Positions 5,944 through 39,702 of a DNA stretch of 64,000 bases are shown here, piece by piece. This stretch comes from Eutreptiella sp. 'Long Island Sound 2002' (Eukaryota > Euglenozoa > Euglenophyceae > Eutreptiales > Eutreptiaceae), in contig OZ038382.1 of assembly GCA_964036045.1 (NCBI GenBank), positions 76,979,918 to 77,043,917 of the forward strand, in the 5' to 3' direction. The notes beneath the pieces are model-generated. The model did not search any database and was not told the DNA's origin. It was given only the letters and a program-made list of their open reading frames with translations. Both the position numbers and the translations under genes were made by a program. Numbering within the stretch: position 1 is the first letter of the stretch; each line of letters opens with the position of its first letter.

Positions 5944-7163
5944 GCCAGGAGTGGCGGGGCGCAGGAGGAGCACACACACCAGCACAAACACACCCAAACA
6001 CCCCAGCCAGGAGTGGCGGGGCGCAGCCAAAACCCGAGCCGGAACACACAGGCACACGCCGCACACCCGAGCCAGGAGTGGCGGGGTAAAAGCGGAGCGC
6101 GGACACCAGCACACACACACCCCAACACCCCAGCCAGGAGTGGCGGGGTGCAGCCAGAACCCGCGCCCAAGCACACACACCCACGCAACACACCCAAGCC
6201 ACGAGTGGCTGGGTACAAGGGGAGCACGCACACCAACATGCACACCCCAACACCCCAGCCAGAAGTGGCTGGGCGCAGCCAAAACCCGAGCCCAAACACA
6301 CACACCCATGGCGCAAACCACAGCCAGGAGTGGCAGGGGAAAAGCGGAGCGCGCACACCAACACGCACACCCCAACACCCCAGACAGGAGTTGCGGGGCG
6401 CAGCCGAAACCCGAGCCCAAACACCCACACCCGCACCGCACACCCCAGTCAGGAGTGGCGGTGTACAGGGGGAGCTCGCACACCACCACACACACACCCC
6501 AACACCCCAGCCAGGAGTGGTGGGGCGCAGCCAAAACCCGAACACAAACACACACGGCCAGACCGCACACCCCAGCCAGGAGTGGTGGGGTACATGGGGA
6601 GCCCCCACACCAGCACAAACACACCCCAACACCCCAGCCAGGCATGGCGGGGCGCAGCCGAAACCCGAGCCCAAGCAGACACACCCACACCGGACACCCC
6701 AGCCAGGAGTGGCGGGGTACAGGGGGAGCACACACACAAACACGCACACCCCAACACCCAAGCCCGGAGTGGCGGGGCGAAGCAGAAACCCGAGCCCAAA
6801 AGACCTACACCCACACCGCACACCCCAGCCAGGAGTGGCAGGGTACAAGCAGAGCGTGCACACGAGCACACACACACTCCAACACCCCAGCCAGAAGTGG
6901 CGGGGCGCAGCTGAAACCCGAACCCAAGCACACACACCCAGGCTGCACACCCCAGCCAGCAGTGGCGGGGTACAAGAGGAGCACGCACACAAACACGCAC
7001 TTGCGTACACCCCAGCCAGGAGTCGTGCGGCGCACCTGAAGCCCCAGCCCAAACACACACATACACACGGCACACCCCAGCCAGGAGTGGCGGGGCGCAG
7101 CCGAAACCCGAGCCCAAACACCCACACCCGCACCGCACACCCGCGCGAGGAGTGGCGGGGTAC
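5944..7163. repeat. dimeric minisatellite, block 1
   Basis: About 20 tandem half-units each begin with a core close to GCCAGGAGTGGCGGGG. The cores start near 5944, 6006, 6071, 6133, 6198, 6258, 6323, 6383, 6448, 6510, 6574, 6636, 6702, 6762, 6828, 6890, 6954, 7014, 7078 and 7142. Two half-units alternate: one reads CGCAGCCGAAACCCGAGCCC after the core (about 64-66 bp), the other TACAAGGGGAGCACGCACAC (about 60-62 bp), giving a dimer of about 126 bp. The array stops abruptly at 7163 where element A begins, and resumes after A. Confidence 0.9.
7160..7163. repeat. target-site duplication of element A, left copy
   Basis: GTAC directly precedes the TGAAGCGGTACC start of the 5' LTR. The same GTAC directly follows the 3' LTR at 33630-33633. 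The minisatellite unit normally reads GGCGGGGTACAAGGGGAGC, so the empty site can be read directly. Confidence 0.85.
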
Positions 7164-9897
7164 TGAAGCGGTACCCAGAACCTATGGCCCATGGCCCGGA
7201 GGCCTGTGAGCCGTCACACCCGTGCGGAAGCCGTTGACACCGGCTGTCACCGGCATATCCCTGTTCTCTAATCCGGATCTGGAATCTGATCCTTAACCAT
7301 TGAATCGATGTAGAATGACCATAATTTTATTGTCTTAGGCGATTTTCGGTCGGAAATCGGCAAAATACCCGATTTCTACCGCGATTTCTAATTGTCGTGA
7401 AATCGCCGCCTGATGTCGCCTGTTCGCGCGCCTTCGTCGCTTCTCGGTGGCGAGCTTTGTGATTGACTTTTCTCGAGTACCTGTGAGGTTCTAAGAGAAC
7501 TTAATGGCTGAGTCTAGAGGGTATTTAATGTACTGTCATCTGGTGTGTTCACCAGAATTTTTCGCCGTTGCGTTTTCGAGAAAATCAGCGCGCAAGGCTT
7601 TCCGTTGATCGTGCGAACTCATGCTTCTCAAGGACCATGAGTTCGGACGGAACCCTACATCTCCCCCCTTTTAGGCAGCCTATGGTTCTCGCAAACCCAA
7701 GTCGTTTGCGTGCGCAAACGCTAACTTTGTGGCCTAGTGAGCATGAACGTTAATAAACAAACACAATGCTCACAAGACCAAAAGCCCTAGGCCATTTTTG
7801 ATTTTCGAGCCAACTCAACGATGGCTCCACGCAATGCGTACCAAAACTCTATTTTCGAAAAAGGGCAAGTTTTGGTCCGAAATTGGGCCAAAATGGCAAA
7901 ACCCCCGAGGCGCGTACTCGAAGCCTATGGGGAGTTGAGCCTCGAACTAAGGCAATATGTAGAGTAGAGACCACGAAGAACATCGTGGACGGCTTGGTTG
8001 ATTTGTACAACCTTGTCTTCTATTTTATATAATTTCGCCTTGTGAGCACGCATGCCATATTGCCTCTTTGCACACGCGCTCATATGCAAGCACTATTGAC
8101 ACGAGTGGGCGGAGACAATCTAACCATGGTGTGCATATTTGGAAGCACCTACTATGGGCCTACTCCAAAAGTGTTTGCTCATATTTTTGTTGACCCAAAG
8201 ATATGTTCATGCAAATATCGCCGATATATGCACTTTTTCCCATAAATAGTGTGCTTCAAGGATTGAGGTGTTAAAAATGCTTTCATTGTGCTTTGAACCT
8301 CAACCCTTGTTGCAAAAGGGAGGCAAAGCTTCGGTTTGCATCCATGCAAAAGCCCGAGGCTCCTTTCTCTCGTGATACGGAGATACGATATTTGGAGGGA
8401 CCACTTTTGGGTGAATTTTGGCCGTTTTGCCCAAAATGGCCACAAACTCCTTCTCCTCCTGATTTCACCCCCGAGGTTGCGTGCGCCACTTGACCAAGGG
8501 TAAGGGCAACTCGAAGAGGGCACACAAACCTGCATCGGATGGGGTGTTTCCCCATGTGGCCTCTCCTCTCAATGAGAGAGTTGTGAGTCAGCCAATTTGG
8601 GGTATGTTGCCATTCTGCCCCATTTGTGTGTCACTTTCTCTCCAATGGGAAAAATGGCTAGAGACGATCATGAGGGTTGGCAAGTCGCATATATTGGGAC
8701 CCAAGTCCCATGTGATCATAGCATTTTTGGTTGGAAGAATCCTCACCGTGGCCATGGAGATATGGAATCATGAGTGCGGGCCATTTTGGCCAAATTTCAC
8801 TGTTTTTGCCATTGTATGCCATATTGGAATTACCATATCTCCATGGGGCACGGGATCTAGCCATGAAGGAAGGACGAATATTGTAGCAGATGATCAAGGG
8901 TTGAAAGCCATTGAGTTTCGTATTTGCTCCTCCGGCTCATCCGGAGTTATTCAACTTTTAGTGCGATCCACGATCCCCCCCTTTGCACCGCATGTTGCTT
9001 TCTGCCCCGTCCGTGTGGTCATCCCCTCGGTGAACAGTAAGCAGCCAGCGTGACAGCAAGCGATAACCCAGGGCATGGGACCAGAGGGGATATCAAGGGT
9101 TGTGAATCAAGGCTTGGCGCGTCAATATCGCCAAGATTTCCTACCCTTGACGGTCGCCCGAGACGGCCGATTTTGCCATTTTGGCAATCATGACCCCACT
9201 TGACGAACCCGTGGTGCCCTGATGCCGGGACCTCAGAGGGAACGAGGTTGGGTGAGGGCTCCAGGGAGTTCGTATGCGAAGGGCATAGGGTCAGTTGCCT
9301 CGTCCCTACCTCTGGCGGGTCCGGACGAGGGGTCAATTTTGGAGTTTTCGGAAGCAATCATCTGTTTGGGCTGAAACAGCCCATTTTCAGCTACCAACTC
9401 CTAGGGGATAATGGCGGAGCCATATCTCTGTCTCAGAGAGGAGTTCGGACCTGCTGTTGAGGGAGCATGGGGAGCCATCGTTGGTTGACCTTGGAACCCT
9501 CTTGGTTCTCAGGAACTCGCCTGTGGCTTGGCGGGACAACCCCCATATTGGCAGGGTTTCAGGGTCCGGACTGAGCAGGGCATGGGTTGTGTTTGAGCCC
9601 CCGCCCCCACCAGCCACTGAGAGGGTCGGACCTGGGATTGGGATACTAGATGGGACTGAGTGTCTATTGTCCTGTAATGCCCTTACCCCAGTCCAGTCTT
9701 GACCCCATGTGTACATATCCTGATGTGTTGCTGTACATACTTTTGTTCCCTTGTTTCAGAGAGGCAAGGATCCTGAAACGCTTTGTCACATGACACGAGC
9801 GTAATGATGCCCTTGTGAGCGCAGTGCTTTGCCTGCCTGCTCACCTGTGCGTGTCACCCGCAGCGTCCCGTGGCCGGCCCCCCACGGGAACGCGTCA
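7164..9897 (+). repeat. 5' LTR of element A
   Basis: 2734 bp starting TGAAGCGGTACCCAGAACC and ending GGGAACGCGTCA. It matches 30849-33629 along its whole length. It contains the hairpin GGGCTGAAACAGCCC at 9368-9382, absent from the 3' copy but present in the A2 LTR. Compared with the 3' copy it lacks about 70 bp after the CTCCCCCCT near 7670. Open frames within it (for example 8293-8493) are short and show no motif. Confidence 0.9.
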
Positions 9898-14588: not shown

Positions 14589-17500
14589 CGGAGCCCCTGC
14601 AGCCAAGGGCCCCAGCTAGGGCGGTCGCAGGATGGTGACGTGGGAAGCGCCGAACCATCCCAGTCGGGAGTCGATAAGCACAAAGGGACTGCCGCGGGCG
14701 GAAGGCCCGGTCCGGCACCCAGTCGCGGAGGCGGGGTGAGGGCAAGTGAAGGCACGAACCCTTGCACCCGTCCGTCCTTCGCGACCAAGAATGTGTTTGA
14801 TGTACTTCAAGATCTATCCGAGACTATCGGAGGATCACCCGGACCGCAGCTGGATGCTGCAGATGGGCAGCCTGAGCCCATTGTCCACGACCTGCACCAG
14901 TCGCTTGTTGAGCTTCTGGACCGGCCGGAGATCCTGAGCTTGCACGCCGTGCGCCGAGTTGGGCGTGAGCGGCAGTTGCACCTTAAGGTCTGTGCCTTAT
15001 GCGGGGAAGTGGAAAAGGTCTTCGACGTGTTGGTCGACACGGGCGCTCAGGTCAGCTTGGTCAAGGCTGGCCTACTTCCGCCAGAGTGTTTGACCGACAG
15101 TCGGAAACCTGTCAGGCTGAAGGTGGCGAACGGCCAGTACATGGTGGGAGGCACGAAGGAAGCGGCCATTGGGCTGCAGTTCGTGAACCATCGTGAGCTT
15201 AGCCGCCCAGACCTCGGCAAGGAAATCCTCCTGCACGGTCGCTTCTACGAGGCCGAGATGGACTGGGACATGATCGTTGGGTACGACTTCATGATGGAGA
15301 CGGACTCCGGCATTCTCCCGGCCCAGGCCTCGAAGACCCTGTACCAGGACGACCAGCTCTCGTGGCTTTCGTCACCTGAACACCATGTGGAATGCCAATG
15401 GATCCACCCGGAACGCAATCAGCTTGAAGTGGCCGCGCTGGACACTGGGCCAACTGGTCCTGCAAACCAGGACTACGGCGTAATGCCGGAAGTGGCGAGC
15501 CAAGTTGTTGCGGACCTGGGAGCTTCGGATCTGGCCCTGGATGCGTTCTCTTCAGGAACCTCCGCCGTTCTTCGGGTGTGTGAGAAGTACTGGAGCGCCC
15601 AGTACTCCGCGTGGAAGAAGCACTGGGGTCCACATCAGGGCTTGATGTGGATCCATTGCCCTCGATGGGACATTCCAAGAGCGATAGCGAAGATTCGCAA
15701 GGACCGCTCCAAGGCAGTGCTGGTTGTTCCTATGGGATGCACCGAGGAGGAAAGTACCCGACATTGCCTAGTCTCATTGACCAACATGACCTTAAACAAG
15801 GTCGTCCTACCGGCTGGAGAGAGTGTCTATCAGGACGCTAAGGGACAGCCCATGCCACCCCAGAGATGGCCAACGGAATTCCACTATGTGTATGGGGGCC
15901 TTGATCAGGCCGACGCCACGGATTTCGTGTTTGTCAACCGCATCATAGCAGAGCCATGGCAGCAATGCTTTGCGGTTCCCCCTGTTGACATCGGAGAATC
16001 GGAGGAACTCCTCGCTGAAGAGGAGCTGGATCTGGTTCAGGGGTATATGGATCAGCCCTTTCACGACTGGGGAAACCAGCGTGAGGGCAGAGGCCAGGAC
16101 AAAGCCTGGTGGGAAGTGGACTCAATCGTCTCCGGTTCCTATGATGGGAATACCTTCGTACAGAGGGTGCTGGATCACATGTCCAGCCAGGACGAGCCGC
16201 CCGGCGGTAACCCACCCACCTACGGCGATCTATTCCGAGGCAAGACCAGAGATGGCCCTTTGGGCAACCTGGGAAGACCACCTGAGCCGAAGTCGAGCGG
16301 GGTCGCTACCCCTCAAGTAAGCTCAGTGGTCCAGGTGCCCGGAAAAGCCAAAGCGGAGTCCGATGACTGCCCCAAGATCCAGGCGTTGAGGGCCAGGCTG
16401 AAGCAGAGGTATGGCGATACCTTCTTCAGCGGTAAACCTGTGTTTCCCCCATCGGTGCGTGGACCGTATGGCGAGGCCAAGATACGACTAAAGCAGGACC
16501 CCCGTGTGTATCGTCACCGGGAGTTTGCCCTGAGGGGCGAGAGGAAGGAAGCCATGGAGAAGATCCTCCTTGACTTCATCGAGAGAGGCTGGCTCGAGCT
16601 GTGCCACTCCGAATGCGCCTCTCCGTGCTTCGTCGTCCCCAAGAAGGTGGCTGGTGAATGGCGGCTCGTGGTCGACTACCGCGGCCTAAACGCCCAAAGG
16701 CAGCACGACAGCTATACGCTGCCCCTCATTGAGGACATGCTGCAAAAACAACACCGGCGGAGGATCTTCACGGTGATTGACCTGAAACATGGTTATCATC
16801 AGATGCCTCTCGCCGAGGAGTCCCGTGCCTGCACAGCCATGAGCACCCCACTTGTACCTCTCCAGTGGAAGGTGATGCCCATGGGCGTTACCAACAGCCT
16901 TGCGGCTTTTCAGCGGATGCTGGAGAACCTGCTTGAGCCGGTGCGTGACTGTGCGGACCCCTTCGTGGACGACGTGATCATCGCGTTCGGGGACCCCAGT
17001 ATGAGCTACGAGGAGCTCCTGGAAGCACATGAGAGGGACGTCACTCGAGTGCTGGACCTTCTGGTTCGGCACAAGCTCACGGGCAGCAGTGACAAGGCCA
17101 CCATTGCGGTAAGCGAGGTGGTCTTCGCTGGCCACGTAGTTGGGAACGGGCAGCGAAAGCCCATACCTGGCAAGGTGGCTGCGATTGAGCACTGGGAAAA
17201 GCCCAAAACGGTCTCTGAGCTACGGGCGTATCTGGGGTTCTGCAACTACTACTCGGGGTATATCAAAATGTATGCCAAGTATGCAGCCCCCATGACGACT
17301 ATGCTCAAGGGCAACCGAGAGGAGACCAAAAAGGGGTCCAAGAAGGCTCTGGTCTGGACTGAAGAGTCCGACCGTGCCTTTGAGTGGATGAAGCAGGCGC
17401 TGCTATCCGCAGTGGGTCTGCGACTCGTGGATCCCGACCGAGGGGTCGTCCTGCGCACTGATGCTTCCGACTACGCCGTAGGCGCTGTGTTGGAGCAAGT

Positions 17501-17995
17501 GCTTGACGACGGGAGGCACGTGCCCGTGGCCTTCTGGAGCCGAGTCCTGGCGGGAGGCCAGAGACGACGTGGACGCCCCGAGAAAAGGAGGCGTATGCCA
17601 TCGTCATGGCTCTCAGGAAATGGGCTGGGTACATAGCCCTCCATCCCGTCACCGTCTGCACCGACCATCAGAGTCTGCAGTCGTCGCACAAGGAGCACGT
17701 GGACACCCCCTCAGGTCCCGCCTCCCGACGGGCAAGATGGCATGACACCTTGGCCAAGTTCGATCTCACGGTTGTGTATAATCCCTTGAAAGGAGAAAAC
17801 CGTGGCGGACTGTCTCAGCAGGTGGGCCTATCCCGCCAGCAAGGGCATGACGGACATCTCTGCCCATGGCGATGAGGCTGAGACCGCTGAAGCCAAGAGG
17901 ATCATTGAAATGGAGCGCCTGATGGAGGAAGAGGGTGTGAAATGCTTCGTCGTCACAGCTGCGGATGCCCCCCTCGGAATGAGGATGGGCAGTAA
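14589..17995 (+). pseudogene. pol: pol of element A, 5' part: protease, MT-like domain, RT, RNase H
   Basis: The frame is open from the gag UAG to 17636. The aspartic protease has VDTGAQVSLV near 15034 and a downstream DMIVGYDFM. Residues around LDAFSS (15538) to QPMPPQRWPT (15880) form a domain homologous to the methyltransferase-like domain of element B, but with WIHCPRWD where B has WINPPFD. Reverse transcriptase shows WRLVVDYRGLN, FTVIDLKHGYHQMPL and the catalytic FVDD near 16966. RNase H shows LRTDASDYAVGAVLEQV and CTDHQSLQS. Frameshifts near 17565 and 17790 break RNase H. The reading is then cut at 17995 by insertion of B and resumes at 27861. Confidence 0.85.
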
Positions 17996-18067
17996 TGTAC
18001 ATCTCAGAATCATTGAAATTCTGATCACATCAGTGTATAATTGAGTGCTGTCACTGCTGCCGTTACA
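17996..18067 (-). repeat. 3' LTR of element B (72 bp)
   Basis: Identical to 27789-27860 except C versus G at position 10 of the + strand sequence. It contains an inverted repeat TCAGAAT-CATTGAA-ATTCTGA and a TATAATT/AATTATA core. On the minus strand it starts with TG directly after the purine tract AGAGGGGGAG, which fixes this boundary. Confidence 0.8.
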
Positions 18068-18077
18068 CTCCCCCTCT
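18068..18077 (-). promoter_or_regulatory. polypurine tract of element B
   Basis: AGAGGGGGAG on the minus strand, touching the TG of the 3' LTR. This is the expected position for the primer of second-strand DNA synthesis and supports the very short LTR. Confidence 0.75.
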
Positions 18078-19413
18078 GAAAACATACGCCAGTATGTCAG
18101 GCAGGGTCAAGTGAAGTGCACGAAACGGCGAAAGTGAACAAAAACCGACTAATCTAAGGCAAAATGTGTGAAAATGAGCTGAATTGAGCAAAATTGTGCT
18201 GAGATCTGTGCTTCGCGATGGCCATCGACTTGAATGAAACGGATAGGTACTTCAGGGCACACAGAAGAAGCTTCGTTCAAGCTCGAAAAATTGAAAATTG
18301 AAAGTCTGAGTGAAGAATGTACATGATGATCCATGATCCATGATTCATGATGAAATCAGGATCTGACATCCCACTGCCAGAAAACAGAAAACGAGCGTCG
18401 CCATGACGTCGAGCGTCAGAAAAATAGGGTATCCCTTCATGGAGTCCAAGATATGTGAAACTGGCTGGTGTCATTTGCAGTCATGAGACCAGATGCCAGA
18501 TTATGGTACAAAATGTGCCTGAATTGGGACCAAAATCAGTGAATCGCCCGCTGATTGAGGGTGGCGAAGTTCACAGCAAGCCAAAATAGGTCCAATTCAA
18601 TGTCGATAGACACTGTGTGTAGTGTTGAACGGAAATCCAGTTCTCATTCATAGCCAATCCAGGTCAAATCCTCATGATGATGATGAATCCCATGATGGAA
18701 ATTCAATCATTTAAAGTAATGATAGCCAAGAAAGCCCAGTGGGGTATCCCCACACTGTCAGTATTGTTCGCAGAGCTTCATGTTTAATCCAGTATGAGCC
18801 AGAAGGGGTAATTGACTCGTTATAGTCCCAGAATGTATAAGCATCCAATGCTTGGTACCGGGAATTTGCCAAAATTGAGCTGATTCTGAGGGGGATTCCA
18901 ACACAATCCACAGATGAACAGCGAGTCGACACAAGTAAGAACACCATCGTCGTCACTTGGTCTATATAAGCCCTTTGACAGTGGTCGTTTGGAAAAGAAA
19001 CCAACTGTCTCAATGTAAGAGCTGATGGAAATGACATTCTGAGCAGATCCGTCAAACACATGAAACGAATCAGACTCAGTCAGGTGCCAGAATCTCTGTA
19101 ATGAGCACGAACTCGAACGAGTCCTTCCCAAGGCGAGTAGAGGGGTCCAGTCGACAGCTAAACACGAGAGTGTCGTCGTGGTTGAGGATAATGGCCTTTT
19201 GGATCTTCGGATTGGAATCTTCTGAGATGAAGCACATGATTCACATGATGACCATGATGGGAATGATGGATGGAATGACCAGGATGATCCCAGAATGTCC
19301 CATCATTTGCTCATCGAACCACATAGACGATGCGTCTGGACTGTTTTGTCCCCATGCCAAGGGTATATGTCCACCGTAAACCTTTTGGAGAGTTTCGGCG
19401 ATCACAATCCTGA
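18078..19413 (-). other. 3' noncoding tract of element B
   Basis: About 1.3 kb between the chromodomain stop codon and the polypurine tract, A+T-rich with ATGATGATGA runs near 18673 and 19240. No frame longer than about 120 codons and no motif is recognised. Since the LTR is only 72 bp, promoter or RNA-processing signals normally found in an LTR may lie here or in the gag leader; that is inference. Confidence 0.55.
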
Positions 19414-20682
19414 TCAGATTTTGTCTTGAATGGATGATGCCACGATTGGAGCTTCTTCTTGTGCTTGTAAGTCTTCCTTGGTGACACAATCCTTGATCAG
19501 CGAGAGCTCTTTGTCAATCTCAGGGTGTTTCTTCAGGAACTTGATTAAAGTATCCGTATACCCATGGATGAAACTTGAAGCTGGCTCCCATTTGTCTTCT
19601 TCTGGACCGAATCCTTTCCATCTGCACAGAAAGTACCACTTGTTCCGAGCATTCTTCTTGTAATCAAGGATCTTCTCCAACTCGAAACTGCTTGTGACCA
19701 TCTTCCTGTCGCTCAGGTACTTCGAAGTCCAAAAGAGAGGCTTGAACCTTCCTTTGGGGCAGGGTACTTCAGCCTTGAAACGATCTCGATGTACTTCTTG
19801 ATGCCTGCCTGGCTCAATCTGAATGTCGAATGTAGTCTAACTTAGTTGACCACTGACTTGGAATGGGCCATCCCATAAAGGTAACAATTTGTTGTCGTCC
19901 TTCAGGGTCTCGTCTGACTTACGAAGCCAAACTTGCTGGCCTTTCTCGAAGGGTTTTCCTTGCGTTCTTGATTTATTTTTGAAATTCAACCAATCTGCTT
20001 GACTTTCCACTTTGTCTTGGATCCACTTGGACTCTAGATCCTTGATCCTTTCAAACCATTGCGAGGCGTCGTAGCACTGCCTTGGATGATACATCAATGG
20101 TCCTGGACCCATCTTCTCGCGACCAAAAACCAGCTCATTCGGACTTAATCCAGTGTAATTCTTGGTGCGATGGTATCTTCTCAAGACACAGTAAATTGTC
20201 TCCAACCAATTGTAGTCTTTTTCAGTCGCCAGGAATTTTCTCAGAATGGAGATAAGAATTCTTCCAGCGCGTTCAGCAGGGAGAGCTCGATGGTCGTAGA
20301 CTCGGGCACGAAGATGATGAACTCCCAATAGGGCACACATGTTCTCCCACCAGGTCCCAATGAACTCCTTCCCACTGTCCGTCAGAATTTCACTGGGAAC
20401 GTCCCAGTTACTCATCCACTGACTTGCAGTCCACTTGGCAGCCATTTCAGAGGTGAGATGCTTCGTGTTGCAAGGGAGGACTTGGATGTAGCCACTGTGG
20501 CGGTCTTGAATTAACAAAACCCCATCCATAGGCTTCCTCGTGTAGAGACATTCCTCTTGGATTTGTCCCAGCTCGAAGACATCCGCCGTCACCTTGTCGA
20601 ACAGCCTCTCAGGAATTGGTAATCCCTTCAGTAATCCTTCTGCCTTTTGATTCTTGGGGATGGTCGCCTGACATTGCTTGCA
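19414..20682 (-). pseudogene. pol: integrase core and chromodomain of element B
   Basis: On the minus strand, just after a UGA at 20683 within the zinc-binding region (CKQCQ), the core shows VTADVFELGQ with the first Asp, LIQDRHSGY, ILTDSGKEFIGTWW with the second Asp, and PAERAGR with the Glu. The end of the core is TKNYTGLSPNELVFGREKMG, followed by the C-terminal VWLRKSDETLKDDNKLLPLW and DGPFQV. An in-frame UAG at 19837 separates this from a chromodomain, EKILDYKKNARNKWYFLCRW then KGFGPEEDKWEPASSF, at 19701-19500. Integrase joins the cDNA to chromosomal DNA; in chromoviruses the chromodomain directs insertion to particular chromatin. The final stop at 19414 is UGA. Confidence 0.85.
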
Positions 20683-22707
20683 TCATTTGGCAACTCGTTC
20701 ACAGGCACTCTTGAGGTCCCTTGTGTACACTCTGTGGCGTAGCTCCTGCTCCAGCACACGAGAATGTGTGTGGGCTGTCTCATTCCGATGCCAATGGTTG
20801 ACATATTGGTCAATCAGACAATCAGGAACACAAATCCGTCCTTGCCAAAATAACTTGTCGCCTTGGATTTTGAAATCAGACGTCTCTTCAGAGTCGTAAG
20901 GCTTGTCCCCTTTCAACTTGTGGTATACAGACCCAAAAAGCCTGTCCTCCTTGTACATCTTCGTCCAATCCACATAGAGGAAGGAAGTTTCCTTGTCCTC
21001 TTGTTGTGGAGGGAGCGTGGATTTCGCTTTGGATCTCGTCGTAGGAAACACATTCAGGAGTTGCAGCGACGACTCAGAGTCAGAGTTAACTCCTACAGTC
21101 TGATTTGCCTGGGTAATCTCCTTGCATCTGACCAAATCCACCTTCATCCGATTTGTAATCGAACATTGGAGACAATGTTTCTTGATCAGTGCTTGTTCCT
21201 CCTTGTCGAACTCGATCACTTCAGCTTTATCCGTCGCTGTCCCATGAAAACTCACTTCAGAGTAAGCCTCTGAGGCTGGGTAGGCCCAGCGACTCAGGGC
21301 GTCCGCCACTGTATTGTAGCGACCCGCAATGTAAGTCACATGGAGGTCAAATCTGCTGAGAGTTTCATGCCAACGGCCTCTTCTCCCAGCTGGTCCACCA
21401 GGGGTATCCACATGTTCTGTCCTCCAGCTCTCCAGTGACTTGTGGTCAGTCAGTACCTCAACGCGATGGCCCAAGATCCAACCTTCATAACGCCGGAAGG
21501 CACAAAGGATTGCGTAGGCTTCTTGTTCCCTTGGGCTCCAATTTTGCTGCCTTGTTGTAAGCTTGCGAGACCAGAAAGCCAGAGGATGATGGTGACCTTC
21601 GTCATCAACTTGTTCGATCGTAGCACCAATGGCGTAACGACTGGCGTCTGTACGAATATAAAAAGGTCTTCCATCCAACCACGGAGTCTTTAATGTAACC
21701 ACATTTGCCAGTGCTTCCTTGAGACCAGTAAAGGCTTCTTCACATTCTGGCGTCCACTTGAGCTTGACTTGAGATCCCTTCTTTCCTTCTACTTTGCCAA
21801 CCTTCAGTAACTCTGTCAATGGACCAGAGAACTTGGCGTAAAGAGGAAGGAACTCGTGGTAGTAATTGCAGCAGCCTAAAAAGGCACGAAGCTGCGTGAT
21901 GGTTTTAGGCCTTTCCCAGAGCTGCAGGGCAGCCATTTTTCCTGGGGCTGGTCTTCTTGTCCCATCTTCCAAGACAGAGCCACAAAATTCCACACTCTGG
22001 AGGAACATCTTGCCCTTCTTGGGTCCACACACGAGCTTCTCTTGTCGAAAGACTTCGAGAACTTTTGGAACTTGTTCTTTGTGCAACTTCAGGCACTCAT
22101 CAAAGTTTTTTCCCAACGGCGTGGCAATCAGAAGGTCGTCAATGTAGATGCTGCAGAATTCTTGTAAATCCAGAGACTTGTGCTTCTGAAAAAAAATAGT
22201 CTCCATCATCTTCTGGAACATCGACGGCGCATTCTTCAGACCCATCGGCAGTACAGTCTACTGGACAGTGCCACAGGGCGTGCACATTGCCGTCAAATGC
22301 CTATCCTCCTTTCGAAGGGGCATCTGATGAAAGCCATGGCGCAAATCCAACACAGTAAAGAGCTTGCCTTTGGCTCTCGCGGCGATCTCCTTCTCAATTA
22401 AAGGAAGAGGATGCGCGTCTGGTACTGTGGCGGCATTCAGGGCTCTGTAATCCACCACTAGACGCCAAGCACCTATGCTGGATTGGTCAGCAGGTGGGGG
22501 TTTTGGCACAGTAAATGGTGCTGAACACCACTCAGAACTCATGCAGCCCTCCAACCAACCGAACTCATAGAGATTGCGCTCAATAATCTTTCGCAGGGCA
22601 TCTGCTTTGGTGCCGTGTGGATAGAATGGACGTTGTTTGTGCACCTTTGAGCCTTCGATTATGTCAATCTTGGCTTCCCCATTTACACATCGAATTGGGG
22701 GGTTTTT
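20683..22707 (-). pseudogene. pol: reverse transcriptase, RNase H and integrase zinc region of element B
   Basis: The minus-strand frame from 22707 down shows the RT start (GTKADALRKIIERNLYEFGW), WRLVVDYRALNAA, FTVLDLRHGFHQMPL, then a UAG at 22258 where the conserved Trp of Q-W-x-V-LPMG is expected (TGG to TAG by one G-to-A change). It continues in the same frame with LPMGLKNAPSMFQK and the catalytic YIDD near 22140. RNase H follows (IRTDASRYAIGATIEQV, LTDHKSLESW), then the integrase His/Cys region (NHWHRNETAHTHS). The UGA at 20683 lies between this and the integrase core. Apart from these stops, reading is continuous over 2 kb. Confidence 0.85.
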
Positions 22708-23885
22708 CTACAACTTCCCACTCAGCACGTCATCTTGATAATCTTCGAACACTGCGTCCCTTCTTGCAGATATCTTGTCTCTGTCGACCTGATTCCCACA
22801 TTTAATCACCGACATTATGTCCACCAATTTGCGAATTGTTGGTCGTGGTCTCATGTTCTTGGCAACTTCATTCCAAACTTCTTCGTCGCATTGTTGGCGG
22901 ATGAAGCTCACCTGAGCTCGCTCCTCCGTGGGATCCCACCAATCAAAGGGGTCCACGAATGTCTTGAAGGGATGGTCGGACGAATTCAGCTTCATTCCTG
23001 TCAATTCAGGCGAGATTCTTGGAGATTTGTCATCATTCTTGCTTGAAATCTTGACTTTTTTGGCTTGATTCTTGTCTGATGGGGACGAATTGTAATGGAT
23101 GGAGGCGTTCTCGTGAAGGACGCCGATTGTCCTTCCCTCCTTCCGCGACGATACGTCGGGTTTCTGCTCTCGATCGTCTTCATCCACCTCAGTTTCGTCC
23201 ATTCTTGAGGAATTTGAAATGACCTCTTCTGTTCCCATTTCACTGTCATCTTGCCAATAATCTCCCAGATTCCCGTCAACTAAGCACACCAACGTGCTCC
23301 ACGAACGCTGTGGCAAAGGCTTGCCATTGTCTTCGCAATACAGCTTCACTCCCTTGTGAGGTAGCTCGACAATGTCGATTGAAATGTCCATAATGTCCTT
23401 GAACCACTCTTGTCTTGGCCAATTGGGGACAATTAAAATCGCCTTTGCGCCGGATTGCTTCAGCTTCTGCACTACACGAGGAAAAGCGTCGAAGGGCGGA
23501 TTGATCCAAAGAGGTTCAGACCAGTCCTCACTCCAGGCATCGTCGTAGAACTTCGGAAATCTTTTATTCTTTTTGTTTGCAAAAGCATCAACTTCAGGAC
23601 GAAAATTGTGGTTCTTTTCGAAATAATCCACCAGAATGTCCCGCCATTTGTCGACTACTCGATAGCAAACTGACTTCCACTTCTTGCTGTTCAACGAATC
23701 CACCTTTCCTTCGTCGAAATCTTCTTGATTCCTTGTCCATTCCTGCCCATCTTGCTGAAAATGCAGCTTATTTCGCTCCTTGAATTGGTGGATACTCTTG
23801 GTATATGGGTGCAGATAATACAGGTCAGACGGGACGCTGTCGACGGATCTTGGAGGAAGCATGTCCTGTGTCCCATGGGCGACAC
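22708..23885 (-). pseudogene. DNA adenine methyltransferase-like domain inside element B pol
   Basis: Frame 23862-22708 lies between protease and reverse transcriptase. Residues 91-160 read VDAFANKKNKRFPKFY, then WINPPFDAF (NPPF codons at 23502-23491), then a spacer and AILIVPNWPRQEWF. This order matches the phage-type DNA N6-adenine methyltransferase (Dam) family and the methyltransferase domain of DIRS retrotransposons, where N/D-PP-Y/F/W is the catalytic motif. The homologous parts of A and C pol have lost NPPF, so B may be the only copy with the catalytic motif. The rest of the frame is a hydrophilic linker. The frame ends at UAG 22708 but continues in phase into RT. A frameshift near 23885 separates it from the protease. 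Confidence 0.7.
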
Positions 23886-24389
23886 ACGGTGAGCGTGAAG
23901 CCAGGGTTGACCCAGGAATAAATCATACTTTATGCTGGCTTCATAGAAGTTTCCAGCAAACCACTCCTCAGTGACCGTCTCTTCCACGCTCCACACAGAT
24001 TGTTTCACCAATCTGACCGCCAATTCCGCTTCTCTGTCGCCACCGTCAAGGCGATGTCCGCTGACTCCCTCCAGCTGGACAGGTGTCGAGGACATCTTCG
24101 TCTCATCCTCCTGCAGAAAGCCTTTCCTCACCAGATTGACTTCTGAACCATTGTCAATCAGACATCTGGCAAGTTTAACCTTACCATCCGTCGATCTGAC
24201 CTGGATCCAGCAGACAAACTGGCGCTGCTTGCCTCGCCGGACAGCGCTGAGGACCCAGGCAGGGTACAGGAGGCCGGAGGAGCGCGCCAGCCGGTCCCAG
24301 CAGCGTCCATCCACCGCCCCAACTACCCTGATGGGTTTTGTCTCCTGCCACTCAACCCCAGTCTTGGGATTTGGGTCAAGTTGGCTTCC
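23886..24389 (-). pseudogene. pol: aspartic protease of element B
   Basis: Directly follows the gag UAG in the same frame on the minus strand. It reads through GSQLDPNPKTGVEWQETK to the protease LARCLIDNGSEVNLVRKG. The catalytic triad position is D-N-G, where A and C have D-T-G. Downstream is YDLFLGQPWLHAHR, the second conserved protease segment. D-N-G instead of D-T/S-G may reduce or abolish activity, or may be a tolerated variant. Confidence 0.75.
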
Positions 24390-24392: not shown

Positions 24393-27300
24393 TTGCCATT
24401 CTTCTTCTTCGTTCGGCTGTACGTCCTGTATTTGTCCTTCGTCAACCCAATCCTCTCCTGCTTCGACAGCATTCACTCCTTTTCCACGTCCAAGACCACC
24501 AAATGATTTTCCACCACCACCTTTCTTACCACCTTGACCTTTGTTGTTGGAGGTGTTGGAATTGGGGTTGGATTCGTTGGATCTGCCCTTGCCTCGACCT
24601 CCAGTATCCTTGTTGTTGCCGAAGGTCTTGTTCGCTGGCGTCTCCGCGTACAGGGGGTTGCCATTCACCTTGGAATCATCTTGATTCCCGGACTTTCCTT
24701 GGCCTTTGCCACCTTTTTCACCAGATTTTCCACCAGATTTTCCACCAGCATCGGTCCATCTTGAGCAACTTGGATCTCCGCCTTGCTGCGAGTAATCTTT
24801 TGGTATCCAGTCTCTGTTCTTTCCTTTGGACTGCCCTTTACCCTTTCCCCTTCCATGTTGGTCAGCATCTGGTGCTCCATCCTGCTGGGGATTTTTGGAG
24901 GAATTTCCTTTTCCATCCATTTTGGACTGAATTGTCTTGAGATCTGAGGGCGTCCACTGTGATCTGCGGTCGTGTGAGTCGCCGCTCCACCTTCCTTCCC
25001 AAGGGCAATGCACACAGAGCATCCCTTCTCACCAACGGCGTTGACCTTGCCTCCGAAGCCATGTGCATCCTGGGACTTCTGGCGCTCTAAGTTTGCATAA
25101 TTTTCAAGTTGGTCCCAGATCTGCTCGACTCCATACGAGAAGATCCACAGTCGTACTTGCAAAACTGTTCCCTTATACTTCACTTTTCCATCCACCATGC
25201 TGCAGAAAAACTCCGACTGTTCAGAATCGTGGAAACCAACTCTCTATCTGCCCTCACGAATAGTAATGTCTTTCAATCCAGTAGCACTGATAGAGTGTAG
25301 CAACTCACGAACTGCCATTTTTCCCATAGTTTCCGGCAATCCTCGGACTTCAGCCCAGTTGCCCAGGACTTTTTGGTCCGCCTGAGAGTCCCTGATCTTC
25401 TGCTTGGTCTCTGGCGTGAGCTTGCTCAGGAGGATTATCTTCATTTCGCCTTCAGAAAGTCCTTCTCCCGAATTCTCCGCCTCTTGCACCAAAAACTCCC
25501 AATCTTGCCTTGCTATTTGGATCTCTTCCAGAAATAATTTCTTGATCGCCCTGAAGTTCTCCAGACGGTTTCTGTAATGATCTTCAGGAAGTCGAGAGCC
25601 CTTCTTCTTGAGACTTCGGTACAGCTCTTCATACGTCAGGGGATCTCCTTGATTTTGTCTTTCCACATAGAGATTATATGTACTCTCTCTGAGCTTGCCA
25701 GTCAAACAGTCCATGAACCCAAGGATCCAGAGTTCCTTGTCCAGTTTCTCCGTCTGCAGCCACACCATGAACTGCCTTTCGAAGGACGCCCAGTAATTTG
25801 GGTGCCATGAGAACTTCGGCTGCTTCATTACTGATCTTCGAAGCCTCATGTGCAACGGGTTCAGCAAGTGGTTCAGGTTGAAGTTTGTGGCTGTGCCAAC
25901 CGGATTGACGAACACTGGGTTGACTGCGGCGCCTCCCATTGCCTGTGCCTGCGCAATTGCGGCCGCCAGCAACGCCTGATCCACAGTAGGCTGCACGAAC
26001 GGCGTTGGTTGAGCTTGATGCAGCCTCATCTCCTTCAATTTCTTCTGCTTTTCTTTGATCTTGGCTTCGTTTTCTTTCTGCTGCCGGTCTTTTTTCTTCA
26101 AAGCCATTGATCGCTCCTTCACGGTGGTCCTTGCTTCTCCATCAATATCTCCGACAGTACCAACCGACAGTACAGACCTCTCCGACGAAGATTCTCCTCC
26201 TTCGGTACCCAGATTGAACCCAATAGGACTTGTAAATCCAGTAGGGGGGATACCAGAAATTCCAGTAAAAGCTGGATGGTGGCCAGTAAAAGCTGGGATT
26301 GCCGGAGAATGTGGAACGCCGTAAGGCGTGGATGTGGGTGCAGCTGAGGAGGTAGGTGCTGGGTGGCTTGCCATTGTAGGCGCTGGTCCAGTGAGCCCAG
26401 TAGTGCTCAGATTTTGTACCAGATCTGTAAGCTTCTCCAGCTTCTGTTCCATCTCCTTCCACTTGCTGTCATCATCCCTCTTTTTCTCCTTGGCGGCCTT
26501 CTTCAGCTCCTTCACCCTGCCTTCCAGCGACGAAATCTGCTGTCGACAGGAGCAGTCCTCGGCGCACTCACCACAGGACGGGCATCCTGTCCCTTTTCCT
26601 TTGCTTCTGACCTCGTCGACCCAAGTGTCAACACTGGAGGCAGAGCTGGGGAGTTTGGACAACTGCTCCCTGGAGAGGTGCGAATGTGTCGAATCACACC
26701 TCATTTCGTCGACCTCGTCGTCGTTCCGACCCCAGACGCCCGACGGACCAGCGTGCGGATGCACATTCTGGCGTCACTCCTCGGCAATGATGGCCATCTG
26801 CACCATCACGGCGGCCTGGTGGTCGAAGTGGTCCAGCAGCTCTTCCAAATCCTCTTGTTCCTGCAACAGGGCGTCGAATCTCGACCGGCCGCTGTCCCTG
26901 AGGAACTGGCACGACGCCCTGAGCCAGTCCCTCAGGCGGCCACGATAGCCCGCCTCTGCCAGCAGCCAATTCTGCCGGTGCAGGAATTCCTCATTCCAGA
27001 TCTGCTGGAAGTGGTTTTCCCAGTAATCACCACTAATTCCAGTACCAGACTGCTCTCCTTCGCTGCTGCTGTCTTCCAGATCAGGCAAAGCTTGAGAGGA
27101 GGAACCAGATTCACTCGAGGAGGGAGATTCTCGACCGGGTTTAAGGTTGGGTGGGGCGTTCAAGCAGCAATCAGCACAAGTATGAACACCAGGCCAATGC
27201 CTATGGCCACAGTAAGGGCACTCTGAAGGATGATCCTCGGTTTGCTGGGGAGATGCCACGAAGGTAACCTCACGGGGAACACGCAGTGACTCTCTACGAG

Positions 27301-27562: not shown

Positions 27563-27788
27563 GGTGGACTATGGAGAGTACCCAAACCCGGTCTACAAAA
27601 ATGGAGCAGACATAGAATCTCAATGCGCATTCATCGCACATAATGACACAACGTGAAATCATTCGAAATAATTTGAATAAACCCGATCCCGAAATCACAA
27701 AAGACAAATGCGACTCGACTCGCACTCACAGGCGACATCTGGCGGCGAACGGAAAACATGAAATGAAGCAGAAAATTTACTGCACTAA
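27563..27788 (-). other. leader of element B
   Basis: The 226 bases between the 5' LTR and the gag ATG. The bases next to the LTR on the minus strand (TTAGTGCAGTAAATTTTCTG) do not start with TGG, so no standard tRNA primer site is visible. A short inverted repeat GCAG-TAAATTTT-CTGC is present. Confidence 0.5.
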
Positions 27789-27860
27789 TGTACATCTGAG
27801 AATCATTGAAATTCTGATCACATCAGTGTATAATTGAGTGCTGTCACTGCTGCCGTTACA
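27789..27860 (-). repeat. 5' LTR of element B (72 bp)
   Basis: One base different from 17996-18067. It starts and ends with TG...CA. At only 72 bp it is far shorter than the 2-3 kb LTRs of the other elements here. Confidence 0.8.
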
Positions 27861-29446
27861 AGCGGTCAGAGTACTCGCCCCTGAGGGAGCTGAATCCGAC
27901 AAGCACCTCTTCCCAGAGTCTTGCCTCCAGGACGAATGGACCGACGACTACGCTAAGTCTGAGGCCTTTGCGGCCGAGTACAGGGCTGTGACCGACCCTG
28001 ATGACGGGCAGAAGTGGCCAAAAGGGGCTGACTGAGGAAGATGGCAAGCTCTACCGGAATGGTAACCTGCTAGTACCGGAGTCCCGGGTGCTCGAGCTTT
28101 GTGAAGCTTGGCACCACCACATACTGCACCCAGGGGTCAAGAAGCAAGCCCTTGACATGCAGCGCCAGTTCAAGATCGACCACATCGTCCTCTACACCGC
28201 CATGAAGAAGGTCAGGAAGGGGTGCTCGGTCTGCCAGGCCTGCAATCCTGATAACTGGAACGTCAAGGGGGAACCCCAATGGACGCCGGTTCCTGACCAG
28301 CCCATGGAGAGCGTGGCCATGGACGTCTTCTCCATGCCCGAAGTGCACATTCGCAAGGAGACCTTTGACTGTGTGGTTCTCTGCGTGGATCGCCACAGTG
28401 GCTACGTAGTAGCCGTTCCGGCACGCAAAAAGGGGTTGCTTGCCAAGGAAGTGGCAGTCATGATGAATCGTCATTGGCTGACCGTCTTTGACATCCCCCG
28501 CACCATTTGCAGTGACCGAGGGCCCCAGTTTACTGGTGGCTGGTTTAAGGCCATGTGTTCCCTCATGGGAATACGTCACGCCAAGAGCGTCGCCTATCTC
28601 AGCAGGTCTAACGGCCGAGCTGAAGTGGCTGGACGGCAGCTGTTCGAGAAGCTGTGCAAGATCCACATCACCAATCCGCGTCGGAACTGGTTTGAGAAGA
28701 TGTGGCCTGCTCTGAAGGCCCATCATGACAGCCCCACTCCGGGTGGTTTGTCCCCTCACCAGATTCTGTTCGGCAGGGACCCCCTTGGTCGGGGACTTCC
28801 CTTGTCTGGTGATGGCATGGCCATGGATGCCAAGGAATTCTTCGCGCGGCAAGAGGCAACGGCGCGGGACATCCGCCAGCAGCTCGAGAAGGAGCATGCT
28901 GAGCGTCAGAAGTCCGCCCCGAGCTCAACAGGGCAGAAGTTCAGGGTGGGAGACCCGGTGTGGGTGATCAGACCCCGCCCCACGGGCACCCACCGCACCA
29001 AAACATGGTTCACACCCGGAGAGGTGGTCCGCAAGATTGGTGAGGACACCTACCGCATCAAGGTGGGTCAGGGACAGTTCAGGGAGCGCCACGAGAGTCA
29101 ACTCCGTGTGCGGGAACCCGACCTCCGTGGCCAGCATGTGTCCCTGAGCTACGCCGCACATGAGGCTGATTCGGACGACGATTATGCTGAGCAGGACGAC
29201 TATACAGTCGAGAAGATCCTTGCTCAGCGTCCGAACGCCTCGGCACCCGGAGGCCTGGAGTTCAAGGTTCGTTGGCGAGGCTATGGGCCGTCCCGCGATA
29301 CCTGGGAGCCCGTCTCCTCGTTCGTGCCGCGGGTTAATACTCCCTTCATGGAGTACATCCGCAAGCACAAGACCAAGATCCATTGCAGCCAGGGGTGCCT
29401 GATCAGCGCCCTAAGCTCTCCCCTGATGCATTTTGAGCGCTTGTGA
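27861..29446 (+). pseudogene. pol: pol of element A, 3' part: integrase and chromodomain
   Basis: Reading resumes after element B (KHLFPESCLQDEWTDDYAKS), with one frameshift at about 28020 in an AAAAGGGG run. The integrase zinc region has WHHHILHPGVKKQ and CSVCQAC. The core has AMDVFSMPEVH (first Asp), ICSDRGPQFTGGWF (second Asp) and GRAEVAGRQLFEKL (Glu). GGLSPHQILFGRDPLGRGLP ends the core. The C-terminal domain has VGDPVWVIRPR, and the chromodomain EKILAQRPNASAPGGLEFKV then RWRGYGPSRDTWEPVSSFVP lies at 29210-29330. The stop at 29444-29446 is UGA. The region is almost identical to that of A2. Confidence 0.9.
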
Positions 29447-30837
29447 GGTCGACGGATCGTCCTCTACTTGCTTGCTCTCTTACATCTTCCGGTGACCTGC
29501 CATCAGAGTGGCCATATACCCCCCCCTGCTGAATCCAGAGGAGGATGGCCCCTCTCTTCTTCCATTCGTCACCCCCCCCCCTGCCTAATCCTTGGGAAAC
29601 CAGATAGGGCGACTGACCTTCATATTTTCTGAGCTCTTGGGCCCTTGAAGCCCATACGTCGTTGCGCAAAGGATGCCGCTGTCATCGGCATTGCAATTTT
29701 TTGGTGTGTGGTCTGGTTCCATGGCACTTGCGGAATCCAGACCAGTCGACGTGTGTCTGCAGACTATATATGGCCTGAACTCAGGCGTTTTCCTGTCCAC
29801 CCCCCTGCATATGCCTTATCCTAACCGGGGCGTGGTTTGGCCGAGTGTGTTTACAGGCCTGTTTACCCAGCTTATTGCTTGTTTTTCTGTCCCCCAGGAT
29901 ATGTGCATCTGTATGTTAGCCCATCACTGAGTGTGGACTGTTTTTTCCCCCGAGGGGATGCGAATCGACTACGAAGGCGACCTGAGTCGCCGTTTACATG
30001 CTTTTACATAAGGTCCAGCCTGGACCAGTACCTGAGTACAGATTCTTCTGTTTGAGTGCCCGTAATACCGTGTGCCCTATTCGCTGTGATGTGGAGATCC
30101 TGATGGCGCCAAGCGGGAAGCCCAGTTGCCTGACTACACTCCAAGCGGTCCGCCACTGTCAGTCCCAGTGTGAGCCTGCCGACTCGCAGACGCACTTGCA
30201 GTCGGATGGGGAAGGTTTGCCTGGGAAACTGGTTGTTTGATGAGTCGACGCCTCCGCCCACACTGCATGAGGACTCCCTCATGTATGGCCTTCATGGTAA
30301 TAGGGCGAGGGAAAAGACGGCCTTGACGCCCGATCCCTTAAGGAGGAGCTCGTTCGGCTGTACCACTCTGGACTCGCGTCGTGGATATGGACATGGTGCG
30401 CCCGAGGAAGGACCCGTGGGGACTCTCCCCCAGCCAGCGGGCCTTGGGAAGCTTGGGGTAGCCTGATGGATCTTTGTGGTCGCTCTCGACCTGTGGGACC
30501 ACCTCGGTCGTCGTGTGACGCCTATGTTGGCCGTGTATGCCACTGCCACTGTGGTAGTGACCGTAGCAGCCGACACCCGGTGCGCCTGGTATGGGTTAAC
30601 GGGTCCTTTGGATGCCGAACAATCGCCGCCAGGACCCGGGACTTGATACTTGATACTATACTTGCAGTTACTAACAGTTACAGCATCATACCTGTTTTAC
30701 CGTCGGATCGCGATGGGCAACCTAACCCGCAGATCGGCGTGAAGTGAGGATGTGACACCCCCCCCCCCTTCAGGGGATGGTCCTGGGTACCCGCTGCCAT
30801 GCTTGGGTGTTATCGAGCCCCCCCCAGGGTTTGCTCT
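29447..30837 (+). other. 3' noncoding tract of element A
   Basis: About 1.4 kb between the pol stop and the polypurine tract. The whole tract recurs, closely similar, in A2 (39703-41151, opposite strand), but element C has only about 330 bp here. Small frames conserved between A and A2 exist on both strands (for example 30170-30466 + and 30282-30004 -). Because the DNA itself is so similar they are weak evidence of coding. C runs precede a GGGTACCCGC motif near 30785. Confidence 0.5.
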
Positions 30838-30848
30838 AAGGAGGGGGG
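30838..30848 (+). promoter_or_regulatory. polypurine tract of element A
   Basis: AAGGAGGGGGG directly before the TGAAGC start of the 3' LTR. The same sequence precedes the LTR of A2 (39692-39702, minus strand). Confidence 0.85.
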
Positions 30849-33629
30849 TGAAGCGGTACCCAGAACCTATGGCCCATGGCCCGGAGGCCTGTGAGCTGTC
30901 ACACCCGTGCGAAAGCCGTTGACACCGGCTCTCACCGGGATATCCCTGTTCTCTAATCCGCGGGATCTGGAATCCGATCCTTAACCATTGAATCGATGCA
31001 GAATGACCATAACTTTATTCTCTTAGGCGATTTTCGGTTGGAAAGCGGCGAAATACCCGATTTCTACCGTGATTTCTAATTGTCGTGGAATCGCCGCCTG
31101 ATGTCGCCTGTTCGCGCGCATTCGTCGCTTCTCCGTGGCGAGTTTTGTGATTGACCTTTCTCGAGTACCTGTGAGGTTCTAAGAGAACTTAAGAGCTGAA
31201 TCTAGAGGGTATTTAATGTACTTTCATCTGGTGTGTTCACCAGAATTTTTCGCCGTGGCGCTTTCGAGAAAATCAGCGCGCAAGGCTTTCCGTCGATCGT
31301 GCGAACTCATGCTTCTCAAGGACCATGAGTTCAGGCAGAACCCTACATCTCCCCCCTATGTCTTTCATCCATGCCCCTTTCACGCGGGCATATCATCTTG
31401 TATAGGGAAGCGGGCAATGGCGGTGTTTTAGGCAGCCTATGGGTCTCGCAAACCGAAGTCGTTTGCGTGCGCAAACGCTAACTTTGTGGCCTTGTGAGCA
31501 TGAACGTCAATAACAGAACACAATGCTCACAAGACCAACAGCCCTAGGGTCTTTTTGATTTTCGAGCCAACTCAACGATGGCTCCACGCTATTCAATGCG
31601 TACCAAAACTCTATTTTCGAAAAAGGCAAAGTTTTGGTCGAAAATTAGGCCAAAATGGCCAAACCCCCGAGGCGCGTACCCGAAGCCTATGGGGAGTTGA
31701 GCCTCGAACCAAAGCAATATGTAAAGTAGAGACCACGAATGACATCGTGGACGGCTAGGTTGATTTGTACAACCTTGTCTTCCATTTTATATAATTTCGC
31801 CTTGTGAGCCTGCGTGCCATATTGCCTCTTTGCACACGCGCTCATATGCAAGCACTATTGACACAAGTGGGCGGAGACAATCTAACCATGGTGTGCATAT
31901 TTGGAAGCACCCCCTATGGGCCTACTTCAAAAGTGTTTGCTCATATTTTTGTTCCTCAATGACCCAAAGATATGTTCATGCCAATATCGCCGATATATGC
32001 ACTTTTTCCCATAAATAGTGTGCTTCGAGGATTGAGGTGTTGAAAATGCTTTCATTGTGCTTTGAACCTCAACCCTTGTTGCAAAAGGGAGGCAAAGCTT
32101 CGGTTTGCATCCATGCAAAAGCCTGAGGCCCCTTTCTCTCGTGATTCGGAGATACGATATTTGGAGGGACCACTTTTGGCTGAATTTTGGCCGTTTTGCC
32201 CAAAATGGCCACAAACTCCTTCTCCCCCTGATTTCACCCCCGAGGTTGCGTGCGCCACTTGACCAAGGGTAAGGGCAATTCGGAGAGGGCACACGAACCC
32301 GCATCGGATGGGGTGTTTCCCCATGTGGCCTCTCCTCTCAATGGGAGAGTTGTGAGTCACCCAATTTGGGGTATGTTGCCATTCTGCCCCATTTGTGTGT
32401 CACTTTCTCTCCAATGGGAAAAATAGCTAGAGGCGATCATGAGGGTTGGCAAGTGGCATATATTGGCACTTAAATCCCATGTGATTTTTGCATTTTTGGT
32501 TGGAAGAATCCTCACCTTGGTCATGTAGATATGGAATCGTGAGTGCGGGCCATTTTCTCCAAATTTCGCTGTTTTTGCCATTGTATGCAATATTGGAATT
32601 ACCATATCTCCATGGGGCACAGGATCAAGCCAGAAATGAAGTGCGAATATTGTAGCATATGACCAAGGGTTGAAAGCCATTGAGTTTCGTATTTGCTCCT
32701 TAGGTTCATCCGGAGTTATTCAACTTTTGGTGCGATCCACGATCCCCCCCTTTGCACCGCATGTTGCTTTCTGCCCCGTCCGTGTGGTCATCCCCTCGGT
32801 GAACAGTAAGCAGCCAGCGTGACAGCAAGCGATAACCCCGGGCACGGGACCAGAGGGGATATCAAGGGTTGTGAATCAAGGCTTGGCGCGTCAATATCGC
32901 CAAGATTTCGTACCCTGGACGGTCGCCCGAGACGGCCGATTTTGCCATTTTGGCAATCATGACCCCACTTGACTAACCCGTGGTGCCCTGATGCCGGGAC
33001 CTCAGAGGGAACCAGGTTGGGTGAGGGCTCCAGTGAGTTCGTAGGCGAAGGGCATAGGGTCAGTTGCCTCGTCCCTACCTCTGGCGGGTCCGGACGAGGG
33101 GTCAATTTTGGAGTTTTCGGAAGCTATCAACTCCTAGGGGATAATGGCGGGGCCATATCTCTGTCTCAGAGGGGGGTTGAGACCCGCCGTTGAGGGAGCA
33201 TAGGGAGCGATTGTCAATTGACCTTGGAGCCCCTTGGTTCCCAGGAACTCGCCTCTGGCTGGGCGGGACACCTCCCCTATTGGCAGGGTTTCAGGGTCCG
33301 GACTGAGCAGGGCATGGGTTGTGTTTGAGCCTCCGCCCCCACCAGCCACTGAGAGGGTCGGACCTGGGATTGGGATACGAGTTGGGACTGAGTGTCTCTT
33401 GTCCTGTGATGCCCTTACCCCAGTCCAGTCTTAACCCCATGTGTACATATCCTGATGTGTTGCTGTACATACTTTTGTTCCCTTGTTTCAGAGTGGCAAG
33501 GATCCTGAAACGCTTTGTCACATGACACGAGCGTAATGATGCCCTTGTGAGCGTAGTGCTTTGCCTGCCTACTCACCTGTGCGTGTCACCTGCAGCGTCC
33601 CGTGGCCGGCCCCCCACGGGAACGCGTCA
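30849..33629 (+). repeat. 3' LTR of element A
   Basis: 2781 bp, TGAAGCGG...ACGCGTCA, matching the 5' LTR. It has about 70 bp near 31357-31428 not found in the 5' copy. It lacks about 35 bp that in the 5' copy hold the GGGCTGAAACAGCCC hairpin. Confidence 0.9.
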
Positions 33630-33633
33630 GTAC
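33630..33633. repeat. target-site duplication of element A, right copy
   Basis: GTAC, followed at once by AAGGGGAGCGCCCACACC, the continuation of the minisatellite unit interrupted at 7163. Confidence 0.85.
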
Positions 33634-34235
33634 AAGGGGAGCGCCCACACCACCACACACACACCCCAACACGCCAGCCAGCAGTGACGGGGCGCAGCCG
33701 AAACCCGAACCCAAACACACACATCCACGCCGCGCGCCCAAGCCAGGAGTGGCGGGGTACAAGGGGAGCACGCACACAAACATGCACACCACAACACACC
33801 AGCCAGGCTCAGCGGGGCACAGCCAAAACGTGAGTCCAAACAAACACACCCACACCGCACAGCCCAGCCAGGTTTGGAGGGGTGCAAGCGGGTCGCGCAC
33901 ACAAGCAGACACAAACCTTGACACCCCAGCCAGGAGTGGCGGGGCGCAACCGAGACCCGATCCCAAGCACAACACCCACGCTGCACACCCCAGCCAGGAG
34001 TGGCGGCGTACAAGCGGAGCACGCACACAAGCACACAGACACCCCAACACCCAAGCCAGGAGTGGCGGGGTGGAGCCGATACCCGAGCTGTATCACACAC
34101 ACCCACAACGCACACCCCGGCCAGGAGTGGTCGGGTACAAGCGGAACAGGAACACAAGCACACACACACCCCAACACCCCAGCCAGGAGTGGCGGGGCGC
34201 AGCCGAAAGCCCAACCCAACCACAACCCGGACCCA
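33634..34235. repeat. dimeric minisatellite, block 2
   Basis: The same alternating half-units as block 1, with cores such as GCCAGGAGTGGCGGGG, including about nine cores up to about 34182. It is the right part of one array split by element A. Units here are slightly more diverged at the array edge, as is common for tandem repeats. Confidence 0.9.
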
Positions 34236-39691: not shown

Positions 39692-39702
39692 TCACCCCCC
39701 TC
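39692..39702 (-). promoter_or_regulatory. polypurine tract of A2
   Basis: AAGGAGGGGGG on the minus strand, directly before the TG of the LTR and identical to that of A. Confidence 0.85.

Follow-up and report, generated by a model that had tools for sequence, protein, structure and literature searches.

What is a phage-type methyltransferase-like domain doing inside the pol polyprotein of a Ty3-type retrotransposon? The question is raised by a 64,000-nucleotide stretch (the window) of the genome of the euglenophyte Eutreptiella sp. 'Long Island Sound 2002' (GCA_964036045.1, contig OZ038382.1, positions 76,979,918 to 77,043,917). A preliminary description, made from the letters alone, had placed a Dam-type adenine methyltransferase-like domain between the protease (PR) and the reverse transcriptase (RT) of one retrotransposon, element B, suggesting that it either marks the element's DNA or is a structural relic. 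The kinship and the position hold, as detailed below. Moreover, elements A and C of the same window also hold the domain between PR and RT, a point which that description had missed. The explanation favored here, to which we assign a probability of about one half (0.52), is that a phage-type methyltransferase was captured and turned into a standing domain of pol, with a shared structural or nucleic-acid-binding role, catalysis possibly being kept in B.

Element B lies on the minus strand, nested within element A, whose protein similarity picks up again beyond B. Its order on that strand is a Gag-like open reading frame (ORF; 25244-26773, Gag-like by position and with no Pfam match above cut-off), a protease region (23691-24389), an open frame bearing the domain followed by a linker and a pre-RT segment (22708-23922), the N-terminal part of RT (22258-22707; RVT_1, 1e-10), the C-terminal part of RT with RNase H (20683-22257; Pfam), an rve integrase core (19837-20682; E 8.1e-5) and a chromodomain (19414-19836; PF00385, 34.3 bits against a cut-off of 25.1). 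The rve scores of both B (23.3 bits) and A (predicted protein P0059, 29.4 bits) are below the Pfam cut-off of 32.6. By the order PR-RT-RNase H-integrase with a C-terminal chromodomain, B is a Ty3-type chromodomain retrotransposon, and this order bears out the earlier claim that the domain precedes RT in an element that has both a chromodomain and an integrase core of the DDE type. The protease-region ORF is without Pfam match, and residues 1-100 of the predicted protein P0012 align to it at 24131-23832. The element, about 9.9 kb long, ends in terminal direct repeats just 79 bp long (27782-27860 at the 5' end and 17989-18067 at the 3' end, 97% identical), with a purine-rich tract (18068-18082) preceding the 3' copy on the minus strand; 79 bp is unusually short for long terminal repeats (LTRs). 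The window copy is defective, because its protease region and its domain are read in different frames and stops divide pol, one of them standing between the domain ORF and the two consecutive frames of RT. Predicted proteins of related copies are continuous: P0012 and P0014 each run from within PR via the domain into RT, and P0007 starts just after PR and contains the domain and then RT.

The domain core of B comprises about 134 residues (23266-23667, residues 85-218 of the minus-strand frame 22708-23919) with the motif series VDAFA…FPKFY…WINPPFD…VPNWP, the NPPF codons being at 23491-23502. The translation of this frame (23919-22708) contains, in the order previously described, VDAFANKKNKRFPKFY, then WINPPFDAF, then AILIVPNWPRQEWF. 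As for the coordinates given earlier, the frame 23862-22708 is right, but reading from 23885 leads into a wrong frame full of stops. Among B copies, the consensus fraction of the pre-RT segment (about 22711-22929, minus strand) is 0.912, compared with 0.914 in the domain.

Homology of the B domain to phage-type N6-adenine methyltransferases is supported by several kinds of comparison. PHROG_111, annotated as 'DNA methyltransferase', matches the domain ORF at E 1.7e-8, and a tblastn search against phages yielded 663 records at E<=10; all ten of those listed are annotated as Dam or DNA methyltransferase, the lowest E among them being 4e-6 with 88% of the query covered. Profile comparison with phage N6-adenine methyltransferases gave 98.4%, and the predicted fold matches methyltransferases and appears to be of the Rossmann type, as had been anticipated. 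The proposed assignment to PF05869 came out in part: Pfam and NCBIfam scans of the B ORF gave no match, but P0056, a protein with PR and the same domain, scored 33.3 bits, over the cut-off of 28.1. P0056 is 40% identical to B, with NPPF in both. Element A (P0059) remained under the PF05869 cut-off with 15.0 bits, its ORF reached E 0.15 and 11.6 bits with TIGR01712 (phage_N6A_met, cut-off 97.05), and element C (P0101) had no PF05869 match in the Pfam scan. When the PDB was searched by sequence with the domain profile, just two weak matches came up, both unrelated (E 0.27 and 0.32). Beyond the window genome, the host range is represented by P0056 and P0088, both from short contigs; in scans of viral contigs (75 and 39 pattern-matching stretches) and genome contigs (67), none of the matching stretches encodes a relative.

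The likeness to the phage enzymes is partial. Of the 22 positions, counting the start methionine, at which six or more of seven phage enzymes agree, the window copy of B and P0012 keep 11 each, P0056 keeps 10, P0059 8, P0088 6 and P0101 5. In comparison with the phage enzymes, neither the Thr-Pro pair that stands ahead of the first helix nor the Gly-Arg pair closer to the C-terminus is present as a pair in any of the six aligned retrotransposon rows, and A and C are also without the catalytic motif. B and P0056 retain NPPF, the aspartate of VDAFA and a DW pair.

The distribution of the (D/N)PP(Y/F/W) motif, present in B and P0056 and lacking in A and C, was followed in 215 sequences (212 proteins and three window frames), 209 with the domain and six without. 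Among the 43 B-type rows that could be read, the window copy included, 27 have exact NPPF, as does P0056; it is the commonest motif of these rows and does recur in other copies of the family. In B, the consensus residues N, P, P and F are shared by 93, 79, 95 and 86% of 43 sequences, respectively. The 149 readable rows of A and C type were all without NPP(F/Y), 68 of them having HCPR and 65 HGSL, a count which leaves out one spurious second row of P0089 reading NPRF (its domain stretch reads HCPR). All these motif counts reflect the queries used, namely B, A and a mixed profile (best 120 of 544 matches). In the window, the homologous domain of A (15465-15908, plus strand) has HCPR at 15654-15665 where B has NPPF, and that of C (57281-57736, plus strand) has HGSL. 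The two families without the motif form the two largest clusters. A C-like subfamily, P0197 and P0209, has HGAQ at the motif position, and its domain shares 73-79% identity with that of P0101. Since NPPF is missing in A and C, catalysis cannot be the role common to all families, and the DNA marking suggested earlier is not supported as a general function, since it does not account for the domain at the same place in families without NPPF.

Constraint on the domain was assessed on protein sequences by comparing changes on internal and terminal branches, a selection proxy in place of the ratio of nonsynonymous to synonymous substitution rates (dN/dS). Rows with less than 70% coverage of a compared region were left out and masking was applied to stretches whose local identity to the reference was below 50%. 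This left, with the reference included, 31 rows from 68 relatives found in A, 54 from 66 in C and, in B, 18 from 30 for permutation and 7 from 29 for the PR-only tree and pairwise differences; the Fisher test of B used the 21 of 58 rows that passed. In the tree-free comparison, pairwise differences in PR, domain and linker were 0.107, 0.109 and 0.146 in A (31 proteins), 0.112, 0.119 and 0.161 in C (54 proteins) and 0.128, 0.137 and 0.179 in B (7 proteins). In all three families, the divergence of the domain among copies was thus slightly above that of PR and clearly below that of the following linker. On PR-only trees, internal branches carried a smaller share of the changes in the domain than of those in the linker (p 0.033 for A, 0.005 for C and 0.19 for B), and Fisher tests of domain against linker gave p 0.0028 for A, 0.0015 for C and 0.0017 for B (21 rows). 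Site permutation showed a stronger contrast than on the PR-only trees, with 0.0004, 0.0004 and 0.075 for A, C and B on the all-region tree and 0.0004, 0.0002 and 0.035 on the linker tree. The domain has also stayed in frame, and A, P0088 and C align in it with few gaps.

With trees built from the domain, the contrast disappeared (site permutation 0.18 in A, 0.46 in C and 0.40 in B), so that the constraint of A and C is tree-dependent, and B alone is not counted as significant. The PR-only tree and the tree-free differences are preferred here because a region that builds its own tree gains internal changes. Overall, there is moderate evidence, at the level of protein sequence, that the motif-less domain of A and C is under selection, and too little for B alone.

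From the observed homology, position, motif loss and relative conservation, we infer the following history, role and activity. An ancestor of this Ty3-type chromodomain clade would have taken up a phage-type N6-adenine methyltransferase gene of the PF05869 kind, the timing and direction of this transfer being inferred, and the gene would have been fused into pol between PR and RT, becoming a standing part of it in all three families seen. NPPF would then have persisted in P0056 and the B lineage, and would have disappeared before the amplification of A and C, probably in a single event, as suggested by RT similarity. Because the domain of A and C lacks the motif and yet is conserved to about the same degree as PR, the common role is most likely a non-catalytic one, the domain serving as a folded, nucleic-acid-binding or spacer module, which would accompany RT, or be released beside it, in the particle. 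In addition, B might methylate adenines of the element's cDNA (complementary DNA) or RNA. Methyltransferase activity of the B domain is possible but not to be assumed, because half of the phage-conserved columns and both residue pairs are gone. A bolder version, in which the A and C form would be a dead pseudoenzyme with PR-like constraint, essential in replication, and the sister lineage a working adenine methyltransferase acting on its own nucleic acid, is less likely than not.

The best-surviving alternative is that the B-type domain would be packaged with RT as an active N6-adenine DNA methyltransferase and would methylate new cDNA to mark or protect it, A and C being secondarily inactive. 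The residues kept in B and P0056, the lead of NPPF among B-type motifs and the DNA adenine methyltransferase annotation of the nearest sequence relatives found make this a possibility to be taken seriously, albeit at clearly less than even odds, since the missing phage-conserved columns, Thr-Pro and Gly-Arg among them, and the non-significant constraint of B on the PR-only tree speak against it.

Another alternative is that the domain methylates RNA, either the element transcript or its cap, being PCIF1/CAPAM-like rather than Dam-like. Indeed, the best solved-structure match of the predicted fold is the cap adenosine methyltransferase PCIF1/CAPAM, and giant-virus PCIF1-like proteins are among the matches in the viral fold library. 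However, these rank there below phage adenine methyltransferases, and the relatives recovered by sequence are DNA methyltransferases of phages. No PF05869-type phage enzyme is named among the PDB matches listed, and CAPAM may therefore be merely the nearest solved fold; RNA methylation appears quite unlikely.

Similarly improbable is that the domain is a neutral relic, a decaying spacer without present role, as the preliminary description had offered in its second suggestion. The loss of the motif in the two largest-cluster families and the dependence of the tree-based contrast on the region building the tree agree with decay. It fits poorly with an intact reading frame across A, P0088 and C, with domain conservation near the PR level and above the linker within each of the three families, with the tree-dependent branch results for A and C, and with an NPPF common to P0056 and B at 40% identity. 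A chance motif in a domain not derived from a methyltransferase, for which the lack of a Pfam match for the B ORF and the PDB sequence search might be quoted, is scarcely credible in view of matches of four kinds (PHROG, tblastn, profile-profile and fold).

Outside B, the ORF of element A (14589-17636, plus strand) covers PR, the domain, RT and part of RNase H by Pfam and protein similarity; the similarity runs on to about 17999 and resumes from 27859, past the inserted B, to end in ORF 27992-29446. The evidence for LTRs differs between the families: B has its 79-bp terminal repeats and purine-rich tract, no LTRs were found for A in 9800-31500, and C has a candidate 5' LTR (51017-53117, plus strand), 95.5% identical to 61899-64000. 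The latter two form a 2.1-kb direct repeat pair flanking C, whose second copy runs to the window end. A second 3' part of the A family is located at 39676-42652 (minus strand), 92.6% identical to 27933-30867. Dense overlapping self-matches at 5914-7171 and 33630-34224 are probably related tandem arrays, each adjoining one of the two copies (7669-9897 and 31426-33629; 92.6%) of a 2.2-kb repeat. No dinoflagellate spliced-leader motif turned up in the window.

Among known systems, the phage N6-adenine methyltransferases (PF05869, PHROG_111) share homologous sequence, the predicted fold and, with B and P0056, NPP(Y/F), but are stand-alone phage genes. According to the cited passages, DIRS1-like tyrosine-recombinase retrotransposons carry a phage/bacterial Dam-like methyltransferase domain, detectable with PF05869 and stated to be of unknown function (PMC3266345, PMC3783388). 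They are alike in having such a domain within pol; theirs, as described there, is situated after RNase H, and those elements have a tyrosine recombinase but neither aspartic protease nor DDE integrase, whereas the present domain stands ahead of RT in elements that encode PR, an rve integrase core and a chromodomain, a comparison drawn from descriptions only. SymbioLINE-Dnmt, SymbioDIRS-Dnmt3 and KnitGypsy-Dnmt3, elements of LINE, DIRS and Gypsy type, likewise acquired a DNA methyltransferase, one of them alongside Gypsy-type domains, but theirs are cytosine methyltransferases, termed structurally unrelated to Dam in the part of the source cited (PMC5890265). No Pfam match to a cytosine-C5 methyltransferase was obtained among the element proteins scanned. 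LTR retrotransposons of planarians, fungi and rotifers are described in the cited passage as having a dUTPase-like domain between PR and RT (PMC6431247); this accessory domain shares the position in pol but belongs to another enzyme family. No Ty3-type element with an adenine methyltransferase appeared among the open-access matches listed (titles and abstract openings), most subscription journals lying outside.

These elements represent a second retrotransposon lineage with a Dam-like domain, placed elsewhere in pol and with natural motif losses, and thus offer a comparison that separates methylation from other jobs of the domain. Should retrotransposition turn out to require the motif-less forms, the main role of the domain in these elements would not be methylation. 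Should B-type forms prove active, an adenine methyltransferase encoded by a retrotransposon would be at work in a eukaryotic cell.
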